Below, piece by piece: positions 1 to 8,167 of a DNA stretch of 32,373 nucleotides. The stretch is taken from contig JADHWC010000024.1 in assembly GCA_016783665.1 (NCBI GenBank), positions 1 to 32,373 on the forward strand, in the 5' to 3' direction. The stretch is from Fidelibacterota bacterium (GTDB lineage Bacteria > Fidelibacterota > UBA2242). Position 1 is the stretch's first letter. Each line of letters starts with the position of its first letter. The position numbers and the translations under genes are program-made. The notes under the pieces were generated by a model. That model did not search any database. It had not been told where the DNA came from and saw only the letters and a list, made by a program, of their open reading frames with translations.

Positions 1-47
1 TTTTTTGTCTGTCTAGAGTGACATCTGGGACATGTTTTCTTAACCAT
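1..47 (-). CDS. N-terminal fragment of IS1-family-like transposase (InsA-type zinc ribbon)
   Basis: Fifteen codons are visible from an ATG at 47-45 to the window edge, reading MVKKTCPRCHSRQTK. The CPRC pair at residues 6-9 is the first half of a zinc ribbon. Short N-terminal ribbons of this type are characteristic of IS1-family InsA-like proteins. No further residues are available, so the family assignment is tentative. The frame lies immediately 3' of the truncated endonuclease-like gene on the same strand, which fits an insertion into that gene. Confidence 0.4.
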   Translation of the reverse strand, partial: MVKKTCPRCHSRQTK

Positions 48-136
48 TTTTATCTTAATATATAAAAATTCTCTGTAATTCGCTGAGTATTAATCGATTA
101 CCGCTATTTCAGCCACCATTATTTGTCTATTATACC
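1..136 (-). mobile_element. Partial IS1-like insertion sequence, cut by window edge
   Basis: The left edge appears to be one end of an insertion sequence. On the minus strand, sequence similarity to the interrupted endonuclease-like gene stops just after the residues DILSIIR, at about position 136. A short non-coding stretch follows, and then a transposase-like start codon at 47. The putative element end reads GGTATAATAGACAAATAATG on the minus strand; a GG start is common in IS1-type ends. The second inverted repeat lies outside the window, so neither the family nor the exact boundary can be confirmed here. The call rests on the abrupt loss of homology plus the zinc-ribbon start of the reading frame. 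Confidence 0.45.
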
Positions 137-896
137 TAATAATTGATAATATATCTTCATATTCTTGATTTGCTAAAATTGGCTCAGGTTTATATGTATT
201 TCCTGATACCTCAGGGCGTTTTATTAAGGGTTTTTTTATAATAGATGGAACTGTATATGTTTGAGGAGCATTATCTCTTTTTTTAATTGGTAAACCGATA
301 TCCGATAACAATCCTTTATCAGCAATTAATTTCTTCTTTCGTATATCAATTATTTGGTTTATAGAACTTTCGAGTGAGTCATTATGACTTTTAATATCAC
401 TTTCAACCCAAGATAAATATCGTTCTATTAATCCAACTTCTCTATTATAAATTCCTTTGATTTCTTCTGCATTGTGATTTATTTGTCGAACAGCGATAAT
501 TATTTCATTACCTCTAATAATTCCTTGTGGTCTGTTTGAAGTAAATGATGATGGTTGAAAATCAAACAAAATAAAATTTCCACTAAAAGGAACAGCAATT
601 GAAATTTCTGTGCCTTTAATATAAAATGGTTTTGTTCTATCTCGAATATCACGCATTCTATCATGTCTCACATCAATATCTACTTCCCTTTGGTTATCAA
701 TATATATTTCATTTCTATCAATTTTAGGACAATCCAAATAATATTTTGAAATCAAATGTTGAGTTAAATCATAAACACTAATATTAAGTAAATAATCACT
801 ATTTAGACTAAATATTTCTTCTTTAAGATTATCTTTTAATTGCCTGAGATAATTATACAATTCACCCTTTTTATAGAACAAATAGTTATTAGGCAT
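90..896 (-). CDS. 3'-truncated restriction-endonuclease-like protein (N-terminal part only)
   Basis: This 268-residue protein has no catalytic motif of its own. From memory of the family, its middle and end (IRKKKLIADKGLLSDIGLPI, then KPEPILANQEYEDILSII) resemble the N-terminal two thirds of roughly 400-residue proteins. In those proteins the stretch is followed by a C-terminal nuclease-like domain with GETFN, GKTDIL and AECKFW motifs. Here homology ends at DILSIIR, and the last 15 residues are probably read from insertion-sequence DNA. It is therefore likely an inactive remnant, although the frame is open. The start ATG at 896 lies 22 bases downstream of an attC-type core site (GTTAGAC on the minus strand, 924-918), so it is the last gene of the cassette array. 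The upstream purines AGAGG could serve as ribosome binding site. The assignment is inference; no search was run. Confidence 0.55.
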   Translation of the reverse strand: MPNNYLFYKKGELYNYLRQLKDNLKEEIFSLNSDYLLNISVYDLTQHLISKYYLDCPKIDRNEIYIDNQREVDIDVRHDRMRDIRDRTKPFYIKGTEISIAVPFSGNFILFDFQPSSFTSNRPQGIIRGNEIIIAVRQINHNAEEIKGIYNREVGLIERYLSWVESDIKSHNDSLESSINQIIDIRKKKLIADKGLLSDIGLPIKKRDNAPQTYTVPSIIKKPLIKRPEVSGNTYKPEPILANQEYEDILSIIRYNRQIMVAEIAVID

Positions 897-917
897 ACTG
901 TATTACCTCTTTTTAAT

Positions 918-1064
918 GTCTAACGGGCAAGCCTGAGATACGAGGTGATTCTAAGCGATAGTCTTTCAACTTTAAAATTCCTTTTGAAATTCCGAAAATC
1001 TCAAAATCATCGAACAGCTCACCGAGTTATCTCCAGCCAATGGATATGTGAAAATCTATTAGAA
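918..1064 (-). repeat. attC-like recombination site after the cyclase cassette
   Basis: Read on the minus strand, a core GTTAGAC (924-918) matches GTTRRRY and sits 22 bases before the next gene. Inside it, arms at 1038-1019 and 948-931 can pair imperfectly (GAGATA with TATCTC, GGTGA with TCACC). One extra A is left unpaired on the arm nearer the cyclase gene, as in attC sites. An R''-like TTCTAAT (1064-1058) lies directly after the cyclase stop codon. It matches the consensus RYYYAAC poorly, so this is the most degenerate of the three sites. Confidence 0.55.
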
Positions 1065-1805
1065 TTATGAAACATCATTGTATTTTTCATATATTGCTTC
1101 AATAACTTTTTTTGTATTATCGACATATCTTCTTGGATTTCCTGATGTCATTGTTTTAAATGAATTGATCTTATCTAATAAATACTCTTTCTCTATATTA
1201 TTTTTTTCCAAATCAATGTATCGAAACCAGTCTAGGTTTAAATGAAATATAGAACCATATTTATTAAAAGGTGTTAAAACATCATAATAATCATAAATAT
1301 TACCCATATCTGGATTGTCTTTTATATAATTATCAATTGAATTGTGTGCTACTATTCCAAAATATGAAAGATCCTCTTCAAGGAGATATGAATCAATAAT
1401 TGGTTGACCAAAATATATTTGATTCGATTTATTAATACTAATATTTCCAAATGCTATTGCTCCTTTTAAAGGAATCGTCTTCTTTATAGTTTGTGCAAAT
1501 AACCATCCAGCAGAACTAGTAATTAATTTAAAACTATCTATAGTGCTATCTTTTGAAAAAAGTATGATAGAATCAGAAAAACTAACAGTATATAATCCCG
1601 AATTACCAAAAAGCTCTGGAAATTTCTTACTCTCTGGCATATGATCAATTATTTTTCGATATTCAGAAATTCCAGTAAGTAATTTATAGATATCTTCATG
1701 AGTACTACGCATAACTAAATCTTTAAATCCTAAAATGTCTAAAAAAACAACAAATCTTTTATCAGTGGGAATCCAATTTTGACTTGTACTTTTTGAAGAT
1801 TTCAT
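1065..1805 (-). CDS. Pycsar-like nucleotide cyclase (class III cyclase-fold protein)
   Basis: This 246-residue soluble protein shows the pattern of the class III nucleotide cyclase fold used by phage-defence PycC proteins. FVVFLDILGF carries a first metal-binding aspartate at D23, VSFSDSIILF carries a second at D78, and IPLKGAIAFG (111-120) is followed by a GQPIIDSYLLEE stretch (133-144). In Pycsar systems such enzymes make cCMP or cUMP on infection and activate a membrane or TIR effector. The substrate cannot be read from the sequence. The gene is a cassette: a core site GTTAGGT (1847-1841) lies 35 bases upstream and an R''-like site follows the stop. The next gene upstream on the same strand encodes a TIR protein, a plausible effector. 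A catalytically altered homologue with another role is possible. Confidence 0.7.
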   Translation of the reverse strand: MKSSKSTSQNWIPTDKRFVVFLDILGFKDLVMRSTHEDIYKLLTGISEYRKIIDHMPESKKFPELFGNSGLYTVSFSDSIILFSKDSTIDSFKLITSSAGWLFAQTIKKTIPLKGAIAFGNISINKSNQIYFGQPIIDSYLLEEDLSYFGIVAHNSIDNYIKDNPDMGNIYDYYDVLTPFNKYGSIFHLNLDWFRYIDLEKNNIEKEYLLDKINSFKTMTSGNPRRYVDNTKKVIEAIYEKYNDVS

Positions 1806-1840
1806 ATTTTCTCCATAATTACTCTAATTATTATATTAAC

Positions 1841-2333
1841 ACCTAACGGTGGCTGCATGAAGTACGCTTGTCGGAGTGCTTATTTTTCGCCTTTCGATTC
1901 ATGGTTAGAAAATCCTCAAAATCCTTGTTTGTCGAGCAGCTTACAGCGTTACTTCCATGCGATTGTTGAACTAAGCCCGGCAGCTGCCGGGCAGCCCGCC
2001 GGTAAAACAACAGGATAATTCTCTCCTTCAATATTCCTATCAGTCTTTCCATCTTATTTTAATCTACTGATTTTCAGTGGAAATTACACAAAAAAAGAAA
2101 GGACAGACATGACATCACTACGAAAACGGTTTGTCCCCGCCTACGTCAGGCAGGCCCGCCTGAATGACACTGTCGGGCAGGCAACCCCTGACGCTGCGCG
2201 ATCAGGTACAAAGACTTGTTGAACTAAGCCGCAAGCGACATATCGCTGAAATCAGGGCTTCTTGAATCCTGGATTGATTACGACTTTCATATATTTTTAT
2301 CGGTATTGTCGTATCAATCCTTATTTGTTAGAA
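1841..2333 (-). repeat. attC-like site after the TIR cassette, interrupted by inserted DNA
   Basis: On the minus strand the site starts with R'' TTCTAAC (2333-2327), which overlaps the TIR stop codon, and ends with R' GTTAGGT (1847-1841) before the cyclase gene. Arms at 1959-1946 (CATGGAAGTAACGC) and 1867-1856 (GCGTACTTCATG) pair perfectly except for an extra G and an extra A on the R''-side arm. That is the extrahelical-base pattern expected of attC. The segment between 1961 and about 2326 is far longer than in the neighbouring sites and includes the 213-bp repeat, so the site appears split by an insertion. Confidence 0.65.
1969..2181. repeat. 213-bp dispersed repeat, copy 1
   Basis: This segment matches 12473-12685 over the same 213 bases with no gaps; by hand I count about 18 differences, roughly 92% identity. 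It opens with AACTAAGCCC and a perfect 18-base palindrome at 1975-1992, and ends with a GC-rich tract closing in GTCGGGCAGG. A 15-base direct repeat, TTGTTGAACTAAGCC, occurs at 1963-1977 and 2216-2230. Short frames exist on both strands (a 30-residue MERL start on minus and an MTSLRKRF start on plus) and are conserved in the other copy, but I recognise neither. A miniature mobile element or a fragment of a larger one is the likeliest reading. Confidence 0.75.
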
Positions 2334-3278
2334 GTCGTTATTTAATATCCTTTTTAGAGATGGGGAAACACTAATTATTCTAATATGACCGCCCATAGCT
2401 ATAACAATCTTTATATGGTTGTTATTATTTAGAAGTTTAAGGACATGATTTACTAACGGAATTGGTTGATTAACTTCAATTGAAATTTCATTATTATTTT
2501 TCAAATCCATATTTATAATTGCTACTATTATGTCATTTATAATTTCGTCATAATTCGGAATATATGACTTAGCGTACTCATTCATACCATGTATGGTTAT
2601 TTCATATCGATATGGCCCAGGCCCCATATGCCTATATAGTTTAACGAAACCATTTTGTTCTAAAATTAGAATGGAATCTGATAGTTCTTCTTGAGGAATA
2701 CTTATTGGGCTATTTAATCCAAACAGGGTATTTGGTTCTATAATTGAACATTTTTTATCCAAGACACATTCACAGGATACTTTTAGAATCAAGTTATCAA
2801 TTTTATTTAATCCCGGGATATCAAGTATTTTTTCTGTCATATACGATGGTTTTGACCCAAGAGTCGGTTTATCATATTGTCCAAATATTGAGGCTATAAT
2901 TCTATCAAATGATTCTTGATAATTATTAATATCTATAATTTTTTCCCACAATGTTGATTTTAGGCTTTCTGGCACAATACAGTTATCTAAAACAACAGGA
3001 ATTATTTTTGAGCCTTTATTAATTTTTTTTATGATACTTGCATTTAGTTCTTCTTTGACCCATGCTTTATTAACACTGTTAATAGATAATACAATTATTA
3101 CTGCACTAGCTTCTTTTAAACCTTCATCAAAGATTTTTTCGACTAGACTATCACCCGGAAGCATTTCCCAACGGTCAAGCCATACATCAACTCCAGATTC
3201 ACGTAATTTCCTCGCGAAGTCAAGTACAAATCTTTCTTTATCTTCACTTGCATGACTTAAGAATACTTTAGGATTCAT
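2328..3278 (-). CDS. TIR-domain protein with C-terminal winged-helix-like region
   Basis: Residues 1 to about 135 form a TIR domain: KVFLSHASEDK at the start (4-14), WLDRWEMLPGDS (33-44), and WVKEELN (73-79). E77, before the leucine, is the likely catalytic glutamate of NAD-cleaving bacterial TIRs. After a linker, residues of about 155-235 look like a winged helix (ILILEQNGFVKLYRHMGPGP). The last 70 residues are unassigned and end in a predicted alpha/beta segment. Bacterial TIR proteins usually act as abortive-infection effectors triggered by a nucleotide signal or protein partner. The C-terminal part does not show an obvious cyclic-nucleotide-binding domain. The gene is a cassette: core GTTAGAA (3311-3305) lies 26 bases upstream, and its stop codon overlaps the complementary TTCTAAC. 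Its downstream neighbour is a nucleotide cyclase, so a sensor-effector relation is possible. Confidence 0.8.
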   Translation of the reverse strand: MNPKVFLSHASEDKERFVLDFARKLRESGVDVWLDRWEMLPGDSLVEKIFDEGLKEASAVIIVLSINSVNKAWVKEELNASIIKKINKGSKIIPVVLDNCIVPESLKSTLWEKIIDINNYQESFDRIIASIFGQYDKPTLGSKPSYMTEKILDIPGLNKIDNLILKVSCECVLDKKCSIIEPNTLFGLNSPISIPQEELSDSILILEQNGFVKLYRHMGPGPYRYEITIHGMNEYAKSYIPNYDEIINDIIVAIINMDLKNNNEISIEVNQPIPLVNHVLKLLNNNNHIKIVIAMGGHIRIISVSPSLKRILNNDF

Positions 3279-3304
3279 TTAGTTATCCCCATAATATTTT
3301 ACAC

Positions 3305-3439
3305 TTCTAACGAATAAGTGTCACCTACGGCGGAATTGATTTCGCTAACTTTCATACATCTCAAAAACGTATCGCAAACTCGCAAAATCATCAATAAAAA
3401 ACCGCTCCAGCCGCCGTTAGGTGCACACAATGGTTATAC
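3305..3439 (-). repeat. attC-like recombination site after the lipoprotein cassette
   Basis: This is the clearest attC in the window. On the minus strand R'' is GTATAAC (3439-3433) and R' is GTTAGAA (3311-3305). Between them GTGTGCACCTAACGGCGG (3428-3411) pairs with CCGCCGTAGGTGACAC over 16 base pairs. Exactly two bases, a G and an A six positions apart, are left extrahelical on the R''-side arm. Extra bases on that arm set strand choice for integron integrases. The central part between the arms is AT-rich and unpaired, giving a total of 135 bp. Confidence 0.72.
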
Positions 3440-3458
3440 CATTTATTTTCTAAGTTTT

Positions 3459-4265
3459 CTAACAAATGAATAATGTCCAATAAGTGATTACTTCACCACT
3501 TAATATATCTACAAATACATAAAAATCAGGATATATACTTCCCCCAAATATCGGCACTCTCCAACAAACACGCATTTCAAGAGAATCGCCCTGTTCATAA
3601 GGAAGAATTTTTATCGATGTTTCTTCTTTTGCATTATCAATATGTATTGCATCTTCGGTTACAATAAAAGTATCTACTTCGGCGTAGCCATAATATATCA
3701 ACTCTGCACCAATTACTGATTCTTCTGCTTCTTCTGAACTTATCAAATTATTTTCAGGAACAACAATATCACCATAATGGTGTCCATCGACCTGCACTAT
3801 GTTATCAGTAATTAATACCATAATATTTGTTTTTAATACCTCAATAGTATCATGTGCCTGGTTTTGAAATGATACAATCCAATCGTTAAATAGATTAGTT
3901 CCATGTTGGTTTGTAGCTTCGGAAACAATTAACTTGGATGTATCACTTACGTTAGTGAATTGAGAAAATGCAACAACGGCTGATTTTGCCTTCGATACTG
4001 CATAATTCACATCATTAATCGATGATGATCCTCTACTGAGTAATCCAGATGGACCAATAAAACCATATTCATCTAATGTTGCTTTATAATGGGAATTCAA
4101 TAGCGAATCCAATTCTAATTGTAATTCGTTAAGTTCTGATTCCGATAATGGGTATAGAATTATTGGATAATCAATATTTGCATTATCGTGTTCTTCTGAT
4201 GACTCAAATAATTCGCATCTAATAAAAAATAGAAGAAGCAGCATAAATAAATAGACCTTTTTCAT
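3459..4265 (-). CDS. Putative secreted lipoprotein, unknown function
   Basis: The 268-residue product begins with a positively charged, strongly hydrophobic segment (MKKVYLFMLLLLFFIRC) followed by acidic residues. Cysteine 17 could be lipidated, but arginine at position -1 is unusual for a lipobox, so simple secretion is also possible. The C-terminal 50 residues (SLEMRVCWRVPIFGG, then YVFVDILSGEVI) resemble the strand pattern of PepSY/FTP-type domains, in which a VD..SGEV turn is common; this is weak similarity. No catalytic motif is visible. The gene is the first of the cassette array in transcriptional order. A core-like GTTATAC lies 25 bases upstream of its ATG, and the complementary GTATAAC lies just after its stop, as expected of one excisable cassette. 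Confidence 0.5.
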   Translation of the reverse strand: MKKVYLFMLLLLFFIRCELFESSEEHDNANIDYPIILYPLSESELNELQLELDSLLNSHYKATLDEYGFIGPSGLLSRGSSSINDVNYAVSKAKSAVVAFSQFTNVSDTSKLIVSEATNQHGTNLFNDWIVSFQNQAHDTIEVLKTNIMVLITDNIVQVDGHHYGDIVVPENNLISSEEAEESVIGAELIYYGYAEVDTFIVTEDAIHIDNAKEETSIKILPYEQGDSLEMRVCWRVPIFGGSIYPDFYVFVDILSGEVITYWTLFIC

Positions 4266-4493: not shown

Positions 4494-4615
4494 GGCGAGC
4501 GGTGTTCCAATTAGGTCGGCGCTCCAGTAAACTGGATCAATGCACAATGGCAAGTCCTGACGCCTCGGGACGATCACCTTTACCCGATATTTGGACTCGG
4601 GACTCACCGCTCACC
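4494..4615. ncRNA. Candidate structured RNA or long imperfect hairpin, unidentified
   Basis: This 122-base segment is more GC-rich than its AT-rich surroundings and can fold into a closed three-way structure. The outer stem is GGCGAGCGGTG (4494-4504) with CACCGCTCACC (4605-4615), one mismatch. A second helix is TCCAA (4506-4510) with TTGGA (4591-4595). Two internal hairpins follow: TCCAG-TAAA-CTGGA, and GTCCTGA-CGCC-TCGGGAC with a 7-bp stem. CTCGGGAC occurs twice (4564-4571 and 4596-4603). On the plus strand TATAAAT (4484-4490) lies just upstream as a possible -10 box. It lacks the signature loops of SRP RNA or tmRNA. The strand is unknown. A recombination site or repeat is an alternative. 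Confidence 0.4.
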
Positions 4616-4667
4616 ATAAATTTTCTCAATATTTTTAACGTATTTCGAATATACTATTTTATATGTC

Positions 4668-7600
4668 CTAAAATTTTATTTTATCAATTTCTTTCATAAT
4701 TCTACCTGTTTCCGAAAGAGCAACAATGATTTTCTGATAATGTAAAATATCATCAAAACTCAATTCACGTCCTCGGCGGTCTTTAAGCCATTTCTGAGCA
4801 GGCTGGTATCCGCCAATGTAGAACTCCCATGCAACAAGCGGGATATTATCAAAATACTGTTGGTCGTTTATCCAAATTCTGCCAGTTTGATTTTCCGGAT
4901 CGGTAATATCCCAGTCATTTTTACGGAGTTTTCGTGTAATGACATTATCCCCATCCTGGGGGTAGGTAGTTATGTATTGTTCCACCTTTGGAGATTCCAA
5001 TAGATGTATTTGTCGAATTTCTCCACCAAGTTTTACTAATTGCCAAAAGGTTTCCTGGTTTTTTGGATAAGGTACTCTCGGAAAATCTATTTTTAGAAAT
5101 TCTTTGTATTTTTCTCTATAAGTCGGTGAATGTAAAACAGCATAGATGTAATCCAGAATATCAATTGGGGCAAAGGTATTTTCTGTTTCTTCTTTTTCGC
5201 TTGTGAATTCCAGCTTGATATTTTCTTCTAATTGCTCTACAATTTCCATATTCAGGTTGGGTTTTCTGCCTTGTTCGGCATATAAACCATCGGTTTTGTT
5301 GTCTGGGTAAAGGTAGAGAGGGAAGAAATTACCTGAACCATATCTACCAGCATTACCAGTTAAATTAAATTCCCCAATTAATTTCGAAATAAATATATAT
5401 CTCCAATCACTTGCACATTGTCTTGCAGCAACTAACCCCATATTTTCACCTTTAAGGAAGTGTTGCATAACCTGACCTCTTGGCATACAATGAAAACCTT
5501 TGGATTTCCCTGTGTAATATGTCCATCTATCATCAAACGGACGGTATGAAACTTTGCAAATGTTATCAGTTGAAAGATTTGATTGTTTTAAATCCTCTTG
5601 GGCTAAATGCACTTTCCAATCCCGGACATCTTTACCAAGAGAATATTTTGTTCGCGCTTCTTCTATTTCTAGACTAACGAAATCGTTTATTATTTCAGTT
5701 ACTCTTTCTTTTGTGGCTTGAATTGTAAAATCATCTCTTGCTGTAACAATACCAACTGAATTAACAATAAATAACTCAACTATTGAAAATCCTTTATTAT
5801 ACTGTTTTTGTATTTTAAAATCTTTTTGTACAAAGAAATAATGAGGCTCTACATTTGGCAATTCCACATAAGGAACAGACTTAATATTATTCTCCCAAAG
5901 GAAATTGTATTTTTCTTCACGTTTCCCATAAAGGTCATAATGAAAGACTTTCCCGAGTTCATTAGTTTTCTTTTTACCTGTTTTTACAAATAAGTTAATA
6001 GAGACACCTTGCTGAATATCAAATACATTTACATCAGGTGAACCATCGGGGCAAACTTCTTTCTTTTTACTGTTGCCGTGTAAATCTATAGTATAAATCT
6101 TATCGTATGTTTTTAACAGGTTCCAGCGCATACCTCTAAAAGTAGGATTATCGAGAAAGCCGTGTGGATTAATAAATGCTAAAATGCCCTCTCCGTTTTT
6201 TTCAATAAAATATTGACCATAGCGTAAAAATTTCACATAATCATCATTAATCCATTTAGGATTCCGTTCTTTTAATTTTTCTTTACCACCCGGCTCTTTT
6301 TTATAATCTTGCATCAGATTCATGATCCAATCGCCTTTATTGGAACTTTCTCCACTATACGGCGGATTCCCAATTACACACATAACAGGCGCATCACGCT
6401 TAATATGATTTGCTTCGTTTGCCTCTGTAGAGAGCCAATTGGCAAACAGGGTTCCTGTATCCGGGTGGTGTTCTTCTAATGAGTTAGTAAGGAATATTCT
6501 AAAACGTTGCTCTTTTTTGGGATTGTAGCCTGTTTCCCGGAGCAGTAAATCTAATTTCAGATGAGCCATTGCATAAGAAGCCATCAATAACTCAAATCCA
6601 TTCAAGCGGGGTATTAAATGGTTTTCTACATACTGACTCCAAATCCCCTGCTGTCCTTTAAACTTCTTGTAAATGTGTTTTACTATTTCCGCCAAAAATG
6701 TCCCCGTACCGGCAGCCGGGTCAAGAATCTGAACTTTATGGACTTCCTGTTTGATACGTTTATAAGCTGTCGGAGAGCGCTTATCAGGTGTTTGCGTATC
6801 AATTTCTATTGTGGTTTTGGAAGTGTCTGCTAATCCTTGTGATAATCCAAATTCGGTTTTTAGAATATCGTCAACGGCACGTACAATAAAATTCACCACG
6901 GGTTCGGGTGTGTACCAGACACCCCGGCTCTTTCGCAATTTCGGATTATACTCTGCCAGAAATTTCTCATAGAAGTGAACCATGGGGTCGTTTTGTTGTG
7001 TAGCAGAACCAAAATCTTTCAACAGATCGGCAACATTTGTCGCTCTGAAAATTTCAGCCAGAGCATCAACAATCCATTTAATCCGGTCATCTAAGTCATA
7101 GCCGGCAATATATTGAAATAGTTTCCGTAAAAAGGGGTTTGTTCTCGGTATCAGTTCGGCTGCTTCCTGTCTGGAAAAATCTTCTAAGGTCCTGTCATGC
7201 AACCGGGCGGCAAACATGCCATAAGCAATTGTCTGGGCATATATATCGGCGAATTCATTCGGCTGTATATCATGAATTAAAACATCCTTGAAGGCTTTCA
7301 TCTGCTCTTTAAGCGTACTGTCCGCTTCATTATCTTCATCGCTCAACAAAGCCCGCTCAATTACGGTTTCCAGTAGTCTTGCTTTACCAGCCATCATTTT
7401 AGATAGTATAGATGCAGATTTGATAGTTTGTCCAACATAGGTGCAAAAGTTTATTATGAGATTGGTGAAGGTACCAAAATTTTCTGGTATAGGATGTATT
7501 TTGCCCTTTTCAATTTCTGCAATTTTAATAGACGTTATGAATTTCCCATCGATATATAGCCGGAAATCAAGATAATCAGTAATGATAAGGTTTTGGAGTG

Positions 7601-7877
7601 ACTTTTTATATCGGTCGAATTGCTCTTTGTATTCCTTGCTGTCTAAGGGCTTAGCTATGTCCTTGGCTTCAATATAGCCAACAGGGATATTCCTTTTTGT
7701 AATGATATAATCCGGGGCGCCGCAAGCAACTCTGGCAGGTTCATTAGTGGCTAAAACACCGGGAGCAAGGTTTTCCACAAGACGTTGTAAGTCTCCACGG
7801 TAGCTGTGCTCTGTGGAAATTCCGGTTCTATATCTTGTATTGATATTTTGTAAATAATCGTTGATATGTTCATTCAT
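4668..7877 (-). CDS. Type ISP/IIG-like restriction-modification enzyme (nuclease, N6-adenine methylase and specificity in one chain)
   Basis: The 1069-residue protein joins restriction and modification in one chain. A PD-(D/E)XK nuclease lies near the N-terminus (PDYI with D56, then YIEAK with E70 and K72). A helical connector follows (about 150-310), then an N6-adenine methyltransferase: WYTPEPVV (321-328, motif X), DPAAGTGTF (386-394, SAM binding) and GNPPY (503-507, catalytic). The last 400 residues match the pattern of ISP-type C-terminal specificity domains (DILDYIYAVLHSPTYREKY and FPRVPYP). Type ISP enzymes normally also carry a helicase block and are about 1500 residues; none is seen here, so this is the shorter IIG-like layout. 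It would methylate its own site and cut unmodified incoming DNA. It stands alone, next to the defence-rich cassette array, and I see no core site upstream, so it is probably not itself a cassette. Confidence 0.85.
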   Translation of the reverse strand: MNEHINDYLQNINTRYRTGISTEHSYRGDLQRLVENLAPGVLATNEPARVACGAPDYIITKRNIPVGYIEAKDIAKPLDSKEYKEQFDRYKKSLQNLIITDYLDFRLYIDGKFITSIKIAEIEKGKIHPIPENFGTFTNLIINFCTYVGQTIKSASILSKMMAGKARLLETVIERALLSDEDNEADSTLKEQMKAFKDVLIHDIQPNEFADIYAQTIAYGMFAARLHDRTLEDFSRQEAAELIPRTNPFLRKLFQYIAGYDLDDRIKWIVDALAEIFRATNVADLLKDFGSATQQNDPMVHFYEKFLAEYNPKLRKSRGVWYTPEPVVNFIVRAVDDILKTEFGLSQGLADTSKTTIEIDTQTPDKRSPTAYKRIKQEVHKVQILDPAAGTGTFLAEIVKHIYKKFKGQQGIWSQYVENHLIPRLNGFELLMASYAMAHLKLDLLLRETGYNPKKEQRFRIFLTNSLEEHHPDTGTLFANWLSTEANEANHIKRDAPVMCVIGNPPYSGESSNKGDWIMNLMQDYKKEPGGKEKLKERNPKWINDDYVKFLRYGQYFIEKNGEGILAFINPHGFLDNPTFRGMRWNLLKTYDKIYTIDLHGNSKKKEVCPDGSPDVNVFDIQQGVSINLFVKTGKKKTNELGKVFHYDLYGKREEKYNFLWENNIKSVPYVELPNVEPHYFFVQKDFKIQKQYNKGFSIVELFIVNSVGIVTARDDFTIQATKERVTEIINDFVSLEIEEARTKYSLGKDVRDWKVHLAQEDLKQSNLSTDNICKVSYRPFDDRWTYYTGKSKGFHCMPRGQVMQHFLKGENMGLVAARQCASDWRYIFISKLIGEFNLTGNAGRYGSGNFFPLYLYPDNKTDGLYAEQGRKPNLNMEIVEQLEENIKLEFTSEKEETENTFAPIDILDYIYAVLHSPTYREKYKEFLKIDFPRVPYPKNQETFWQLVKLGGEIRQIHLLESPKVEQYITTYPQDGDNVITRKLRKNDWDITDPENQTGRIWINDQQYFDNIPLVAWEFYIGGYQPAQKWLKDRRGRELSFDDILHYQKIIVALSETGRIMKEIDKIKF

Positions 7878-8167
7878 GGGAATTCAATACGCCTTATAGT
7901 TAGGAAAATAACGGTTTTATATTTGCTTCATTCCTATTATTAATTACCAATCCGTATTAATATCAACATACTCCAGCGAATGACGAACACAGTGCCAATC
8001 CGGATTTCAATCATATCTCATAAATTACCAGCCTGAACATACCCATTTTCAGACTTTTGTTTGTATCCAAAACGGCCTGTTTTATCTGTTTATCGACGAG
8101 CAATCCAAAATACTCCTGCAACCAACCCGATATCCTTCCCCAATGCAGCAGCACCGTCAGTCCCGTC

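Follow-up and report, generated by a model that had tools for sequence, protein, structure and literature searches.

The window, by which we mean the whole stretch of DNA analysed (32,373 nucleotides), carries in its first part (1-4265) cassette-like minus-strand genes, which are spaced by imperfect palindromes with TAAC/GTTA cores. Only one core-site pair in this part (1841/1971) fits the strict form RYYYAAC...GTTRRRY. Defence-gene candidates in the window are found at 90-896 (candidate family PDC-S54) and at 2328-3278 (a TIR/SEFIR-domain protein), and the minus-strand gene at 4668-7877, encoding a type IIG/ISP restriction-methyltransferase, is a likely defence gene as well (type IIG restriction-methyltransferase, 1264 bits). 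Between this restriction gene, whose stop codon is 52 nt away, and a cassette-like gene at 3459-4265 (minus strand), 228 nt away on the other side, lies a discrete GC-rich block at 4494-4615. Its GC content is 56.6%, compared to 24% and 30.5% in the adjoining 200 nt on either side and 40% in the window, of which only 1% of all 122-mers reach such a value. An earlier note on this DNA had placed a structured element here and remarked on the rise in GC content against AT-rich flanks. Both observations held: homology with copies in unrelated contexts ends at or near 4494 and 4615, so that the element had been located to within one base, and conservation spans outer stem to outer stem.

The predicted fold energy is low on both strands, with a z score of -3.1 on the plus strand (0 of 200 dinucleotide shuffles as low) and of -3.6 on the minus strand (1 of 200). 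The arms of the outer stem are GGCGAGCGGTG (4494-4504) and CACCGCTCACC (4605-4615), which form 10 of 11 pairs on the plus strand, as had been noted; on the minus strand, the sole mismatch (C/A) turns into a G-U pair and all 11 pairs form. The sequence repeat mentioned in the earlier note is also present, as an exact CTCGGGAC at 4564-4571 and 4596-4603. However, the second copy lies partly inside a stem that varies among relatives, and the repeat is not conserved as such.

Relatives of the element

When 199 related genomes were searched at the DNA level, another genus of the same family yielded four close copies (97, 94, 84, and 83% identity), and a short match came from a different family. The divergent copy L020 has a wholly different outer stem (AGGGCAATG/CATTGCCCT), which still pairs and constituted the first compensatory evidence. 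Five DNA homologues and one divergent relative made up the starting set; a first covariance model was built from these six sequences and recovered further copies in the window's phylum, Marinimicrobia. In addition, a seed pattern was scanned over a species-level genome collection and the matches were filtered with the covariance model. This gave at least 119 matches in genome contigs, about half of which were chance matches discarded by the model, and at least about 60 true copies. Altogether, the covariance-model searches found at least 84 copies in at least 14 phyla. Carriers among the matches listed belong to Desulfobacterales, Syntrophaceae, and other Deltaproteobacteria, KSB1, Calditrichia, Kryptoniota, Lewinellaceae, Gemmatimonadota, Acidobacteria, Verrucomicrobia, Planctomycetota (Phycisphaerae, Brocadiaceae), Nitrospirae, Anaerolineae, Latescibacterota, and Paceibacterota; the named carriers among these matches are all metagenome-assembled or otherwise uncultured genomes.

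Prevalence is patchy. When genome samples from three phyla were scanned by the model, copies were present in 9 of 245 Marinimicrobia, 16 of 297 Desulfobacterota, and 6 of 294 Planctomycetota genomes. Most carriers have a single copy (30 of 34 genomes), and the maximum is three. Two copies with like orientation, separated by about 1 kb, were seen in L129 (4977-5145 and 6057-6216) and on contig C2 of G724 (262253 and 263226); judged by sequence motif, the L129 ORFs between the two copies resemble a nucleotidyltransferase/HEPN pair. The RNA tree, which is based on few columns, clusters partly by phylum and places the Marinimicrobia copies at three positions, which is no more than suggestive of transfer. 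A BLASTN search of plasmids and phages with three family members gave no match within the sensitivity of that method, and of the viral contigs, 60 matched core patterns and none was confirmed by the covariance model.

Neither the window nor its relatives matched any family of Rfam 15 (4227 models) at gathering or relaxed thresholds, in agreement with the earlier remark that no standard RNA signature is recognisable; the best relaxed matches (E 0.2-7) covered only part of the element or lay on the opposite strand. The RNA thus spans many phyla and yet is missing from Rfam, an oversight that the uncultured status of its carriers may explain. Among the open-access papers covered by our literature search, none contained the core GGCGUCAGGAC or an account of this RNA, which may have been described in subscription papers or supplementary motif lists. 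A term search of the main text of a 2024 survey of 50 genomes (PMC11109978) likewise found nothing alike.

Fold and covariation

As the earlier note had proposed, compensatory changes were sought by covariance-model searches across genomes, and they were found in abundance. The main alignment comprises 64 copies, and the structure, including both pseudoknots, has 39 pairs. Standard pairs occupy 94.4% of the pair cells (76.5 ± 0.5 in shuffles), 34 of the 39 pairs show changes on both sides (24.5 ± 1.7 in shuffles), and 424 cells are compensatory (111 ± 9 in shuffles), while slid controls are only 34-48% paired. A second alignment of 24 sequences, including 14 Desulfobacterota copies from a genome-wide model search without the seed pattern, was 95.6% paired, with changes on both sides at 33 of 39 pairs. 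Since the exact seed pattern is missing in 10 of these 24 sequences, their covariation is not an artefact of the pattern. GUCCA..GGCGUCAGGAC looks more conserved than it is, since the pattern that led to most homologues contains it; the genome-wide matches without the exact pattern lessen this bias and do not remove it.

All helices are given here for the minus strand, with the 5' end of the RNA at 4615 and the 3' end at 4494. The closing stem P1 is formed by the 5' arm GGUGAGCGGUG (4605-4615) and the 3' arm CACCGCUCGCC (4494-4504); all 11 of its pairs form in the window and show changes on both sides among the 64 homologues. P1 is extended inwards by P1b, in which UCC (4600-4602) pairs with GGA (4506-4508) and which covaries in relatives (CCAC/GUGG, GCAC/GUGC, CUCU/AGAG, CUAC/GUAG). 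Next to it lies PK2, in which GUCC (4593-4596) pairs with GGAC (4554-4557). Both-side changes affect three of its four pairs in the 64-copy set and all four in the second set; PK2 is near-invariant, yet fully swapped to GAUU/AAUC in a variant group. PK1 joins UCGGG (4583-4587) and CCCGA (4565-4569), with both-side changes at five of five pairs. Both pseudoknots were absent from the aligning models, so that the covariation of PK1 and PK2 is independent of the alignments.

The core is crossed by two further helices. In P2, AGGU (4576-4579) within the PK1 loop pairs with ACCU (4513-4516) and thereby forms a pseudoknot with PK1 (96% paired, both-side changes at four of four pairs). P3, which pairs GGCG (4561-4564) with CGCC (4518-4521) and is interleaved with PK2, is 100% paired and mostly invariant. 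The constant hairpin P4 (4523-4536, UCCAG-UUUA-CUGGA) is 99.7% paired, with both-side changes at four of five pairs, whereas P5 (4541-4552) is a variable hairpin region that differs in length across the 64-copy alignment and is missing in several relatives. The variant group has P3 as AGCG/CGCU and P4 as UGCGGAUUAUCCGCA in addition to its exchanged PK2; its members, L035:1501-1627 (Marinimicrobia), L259:1501-1627 (Desulfobacterota), and L270:575-688 (Latescibacterota), have nearly the same sequence. Conserved unpaired bases are the AA-UA after PK2, the UCA before the 3' strand of PK2, and a single A and G flanking P4. They are located in core junctions, while hairpin loops are variable.

The architecture supported by these sequences has a closing stem, two hairpins, of which one is constant and the other variable, and two pseudoknots that interleave to form the core. 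The three-way junction of the earlier note was incomplete in comparison.

Strand and transcription signals

Among paired cells, G-U combinations outnumber A-C combinations by 77 to 15. As the reverse would be expected if the other strand were functional, the RNA is assigned to the minus strand, which is also the strand of the restriction gene; the earlier note had left the strand unassigned. Transcription signals of the family agree with this orientation in 67 copies that were compared. Promoter-like hexamers before P1 have a mean match of 7.87 of 12 positions (6.40 ± 0.12 in shuffles), and 20 of the 67 copies reach at least 9 of 12 at the right distance, compared to 2 when the position is shifted by 6 nt. 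This family-wide, sigma-70-like signal ends 3-9 nt before P1, a spacing that would place +1 at the first base of P1. On the other side, the 12 nt after P1 contain 5.8 T on average, compared to 4.0 ± 0.16, and TTTT occurs within this stretch in 29 of 67 copies versus 2 of 67 farther downstream, although a strong T-tract is missing in about half of the copies.

In the window itself, the putative promoter region is the 52-nt gap after the restriction-gene stop codon (4616-4667, minus strand). Its -10 and -35 elements are unclear, and by sigma-70 rules the promoter is weak. The putative terminator tract is the T-rich tail TATATTTATACC following P1 (4482-4493, minus strand), which is identical in G004 and is weak in the window as well. 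Across the family, the RNA is probably transcribed as a unit of its own, with a length of about 105-135 nt.

Alternative readings and mode of action

Taken together, covariation, strand asymmetry, promoter and terminator signals, and the lack of an Rfam match strongly favour the novel small RNA that was one of the options in the earlier note. In our judgement, the minus strand of 4494-4615 probably encodes a freestanding noncoding RNA, and its whole transcript of about 122 nt would form one folded domain. Four alternatives were weighed.

In the first, the element would be a cis-acting riboswitch or attenuator, in which P1 and the T-tract form a terminator that is set by ligand binding to the core and controls the downstream gene. 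An aptamer-like pseudoknotted core does sit directly atop a terminator-like stem, and among the first 67 copies the gene downstream is on the same strand more often than not. However, a promoter signal of its own lies at P1, and for a sizeable minority of copies, the downstream gene is encoded on the other strand or lies hundreds of nucleotides away. Moreover, these genes share no common family: in comparisons of the flanking proteins to Pfam, no family was recurrent and the best, an epimerase superfamily among downstream genes, reached 4 of 93. For PADLOC, the tallies on each side stayed at 2 or fewer of 93 neighbours, and an all-against-all comparison of 499 ORFs around 84 copies revealed no recurrent neighbour. 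The riboswitch-like leader that the earlier note had considered is hence improbable given these neighbourhoods. Defence-system RNAs (retron, DRT, CRISPR tracr, type III antitoxin) were not supported either, PADLOC and the all-against-all comparison having found no fixed neighbouring protein gene.

The second alternative is a small mobile element, either MITE-like or copied from RNA, with P1 as a terminal inverted repeat; the RNA would be incidental or would aid the spread of the element. The patchy distribution over differing genomic settings fits such an element, as does the fact that the copy in the window has a counterpart of 97% identity in another genus. A second copy in one Calditrichia genome points in the same direction: L171:3223-3331 (minus strand) is 97% identical over 102 nt to L181:4547-4654, with unrelated flanks. 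It starts at the 5' end of the RNA, breaks off within the 3' arm of P1, and has no evident promoter or terminator; by its sequence, this copy looks like one made from the RNA itself. In contrast, P1 is not constant in sequence and covaries as a stem, carriers mostly have one copy, transposases are as a rule absent nearby, and in three related species of one lineage the RNA has been kept 3' of asnB, inherited in place. The window and G004 also share 12-20 nt of flank per side plus a displaced TGCATATCT-AG block; because of this, the element boundary is not razor-sharp, and a sharply bounded mobile unit of about 155 bp in this pair was dropped as a candidate. When compared for a target-site duplication, the window flanks ATAAATATA and ATAAATTTT proved AT-rich, and their likeness could be chance; no empty site lacking the RNA was found. 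On the whole, we regard a mobile element as an unlikely explanation.

Further observations concern the DNA around the copies. In the pairs L133/L201, L102/L170, and L175/L191, upstream DNA is common to each pair and similarity is gone within about 10 nt of the RNA 3' end, as if this end were a recombination point. An intergenic stretch of the window (7953-8110) is 73% alike to L016:1306-1442, with a differing order relative to the RNA; these are the genomes with the 97% identical RNA copies.

A recombination site acting at the DNA level is very unlikely, whether it is taken as an integron attI, as a folded site of the attC type, or, as the earlier note had suggested, as the point where the cassette array begins. 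The position of the element between the restriction gene and cassette-like genes, an integron integrase in the same genome, and a Gemmatimonadota copy (L145) about 0.4-0.5 kb from an integrase would suit such a site, but 4494-4615 contains no RYYYAAC/GTTRRRY core sites. Relatives do not as a rule sit beside integrons either, with an integrase nearby at 1 of about 62 loci examined, namely L145. Four Marinimicrobia genomes have both the RNA and an integrase, and in each of them the integrase is on a different contig (G000:C86:19743-20681 in the genome of the window). Within the bacterial family, genomes lacking the RNA have an integrase as often (4 of 9) as those carrying it (3 of 7). Finally, pseudoknot covariation, use of G-U pairs, and promoter and terminator signals are features of an RNA. 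Most simply, the cassette-like neighbourhood is a coincidence of the window's genome. The L145 copy (4055-4180) is near two oppositely oriented integrases (4592-6699), one of which shares 51% identity with the integron integrase encoded in the genome that contains the window.

A coding remnant has next to no probability: two frames of the window copy, one per strand, are stop-free after the first codon, but the substitutions in 64 copies are compensatory in base pairs and do not follow codons, and lengths of 92 to 136 nt differ between relatives by amounts that are not multiples of three, so that no conserved reading frame emerged.

For the freestanding RNA, we propose the following course of events. 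RNA polymerase would start at or within one or two bases of 4615 and stop in the T-rich tract past 4494, and the transcript ends would then zip into P1/P1b and close the molecule. The stem-loop of PK2 and PK1 would be crossed by the 3' segment AGCGCC-N-ACCU, which is predicted to form P3 with the internal loop and P2 with the apical loop of this stem-loop. The two pseudoknots would thereby interleave into a compact core, next to which lies the constant hairpin P4.

By elimination, we infer that such an RNA acts in trans. It presumably works through its three-dimensional shape rather than through antisense pairing, because almost every conserved base belongs to a helix or a short junction, whereas the hairpin loops are variable. 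The same elimination makes a protein partner encoded elsewhere most likely, and we would give protein binding or sequestration roughly an even chance as the mode of action. Catalysis and small-molecule binding are jointly a lesser prospect, and antisense action appears hardly probable. One rather speculative extension is that the RNA represents a new freestanding class with an unprecedented double-pseudoknot core, being a trans-acting ribozyme or the RNA half of a ribonucleoprotein, and that it has spread horizontally among uncultured bacteria, sometimes by RNA copying.

In their way of working, freestanding structured bacterial noncoding RNAs are the closest likeness. The element shares with 6S RNA, raiA, OLE, and others its own promoter and terminator signals, a transcript that is one conserved fold, and the lack of a linked gene family; however, it is smaller than raiA and OLE and differs from them by its doubly pseudoknotted core, and its patchy distribution is unlike that of 6S RNA. 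Pseudoknotted riboswitches with terminator-embedded aptamers resemble it in the compact pseudoknotted core on a terminator-like stem, whereas the element has no conserved downstream gene, has its own promoter signal, and has opposite-strand neighbours. Integron attI and attC sites are comparable as folded elements edging a cassette-like array, in which role the element differs by its missing core sites and the setting of its relatives. Bacterial Y RNAs, the partners of Ro60, likewise have ends paired into a long bulged stem and a patchy distribution. However, a search of 41 genomes, almost all of which carry the RNA or are closely related to carriers, found Ro60/TROVE in just one, and Ro60 was thus excluded as the protein partner.

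Judged from these comparisons, the RNA family looks new, while its functional kind, a freestanding structured noncoding RNA, is already known. Few bacterial RNAs are complex and strongly conserved and yet have no linked gene; those known, namely 6S, OLE, raiA, GOLLD, and ROOL, have opened new biology or remain puzzles. With the covariance model and the structure at hand, the RNA is directly testable with regard to transcript, fold, partner, ligand, and cleavage.
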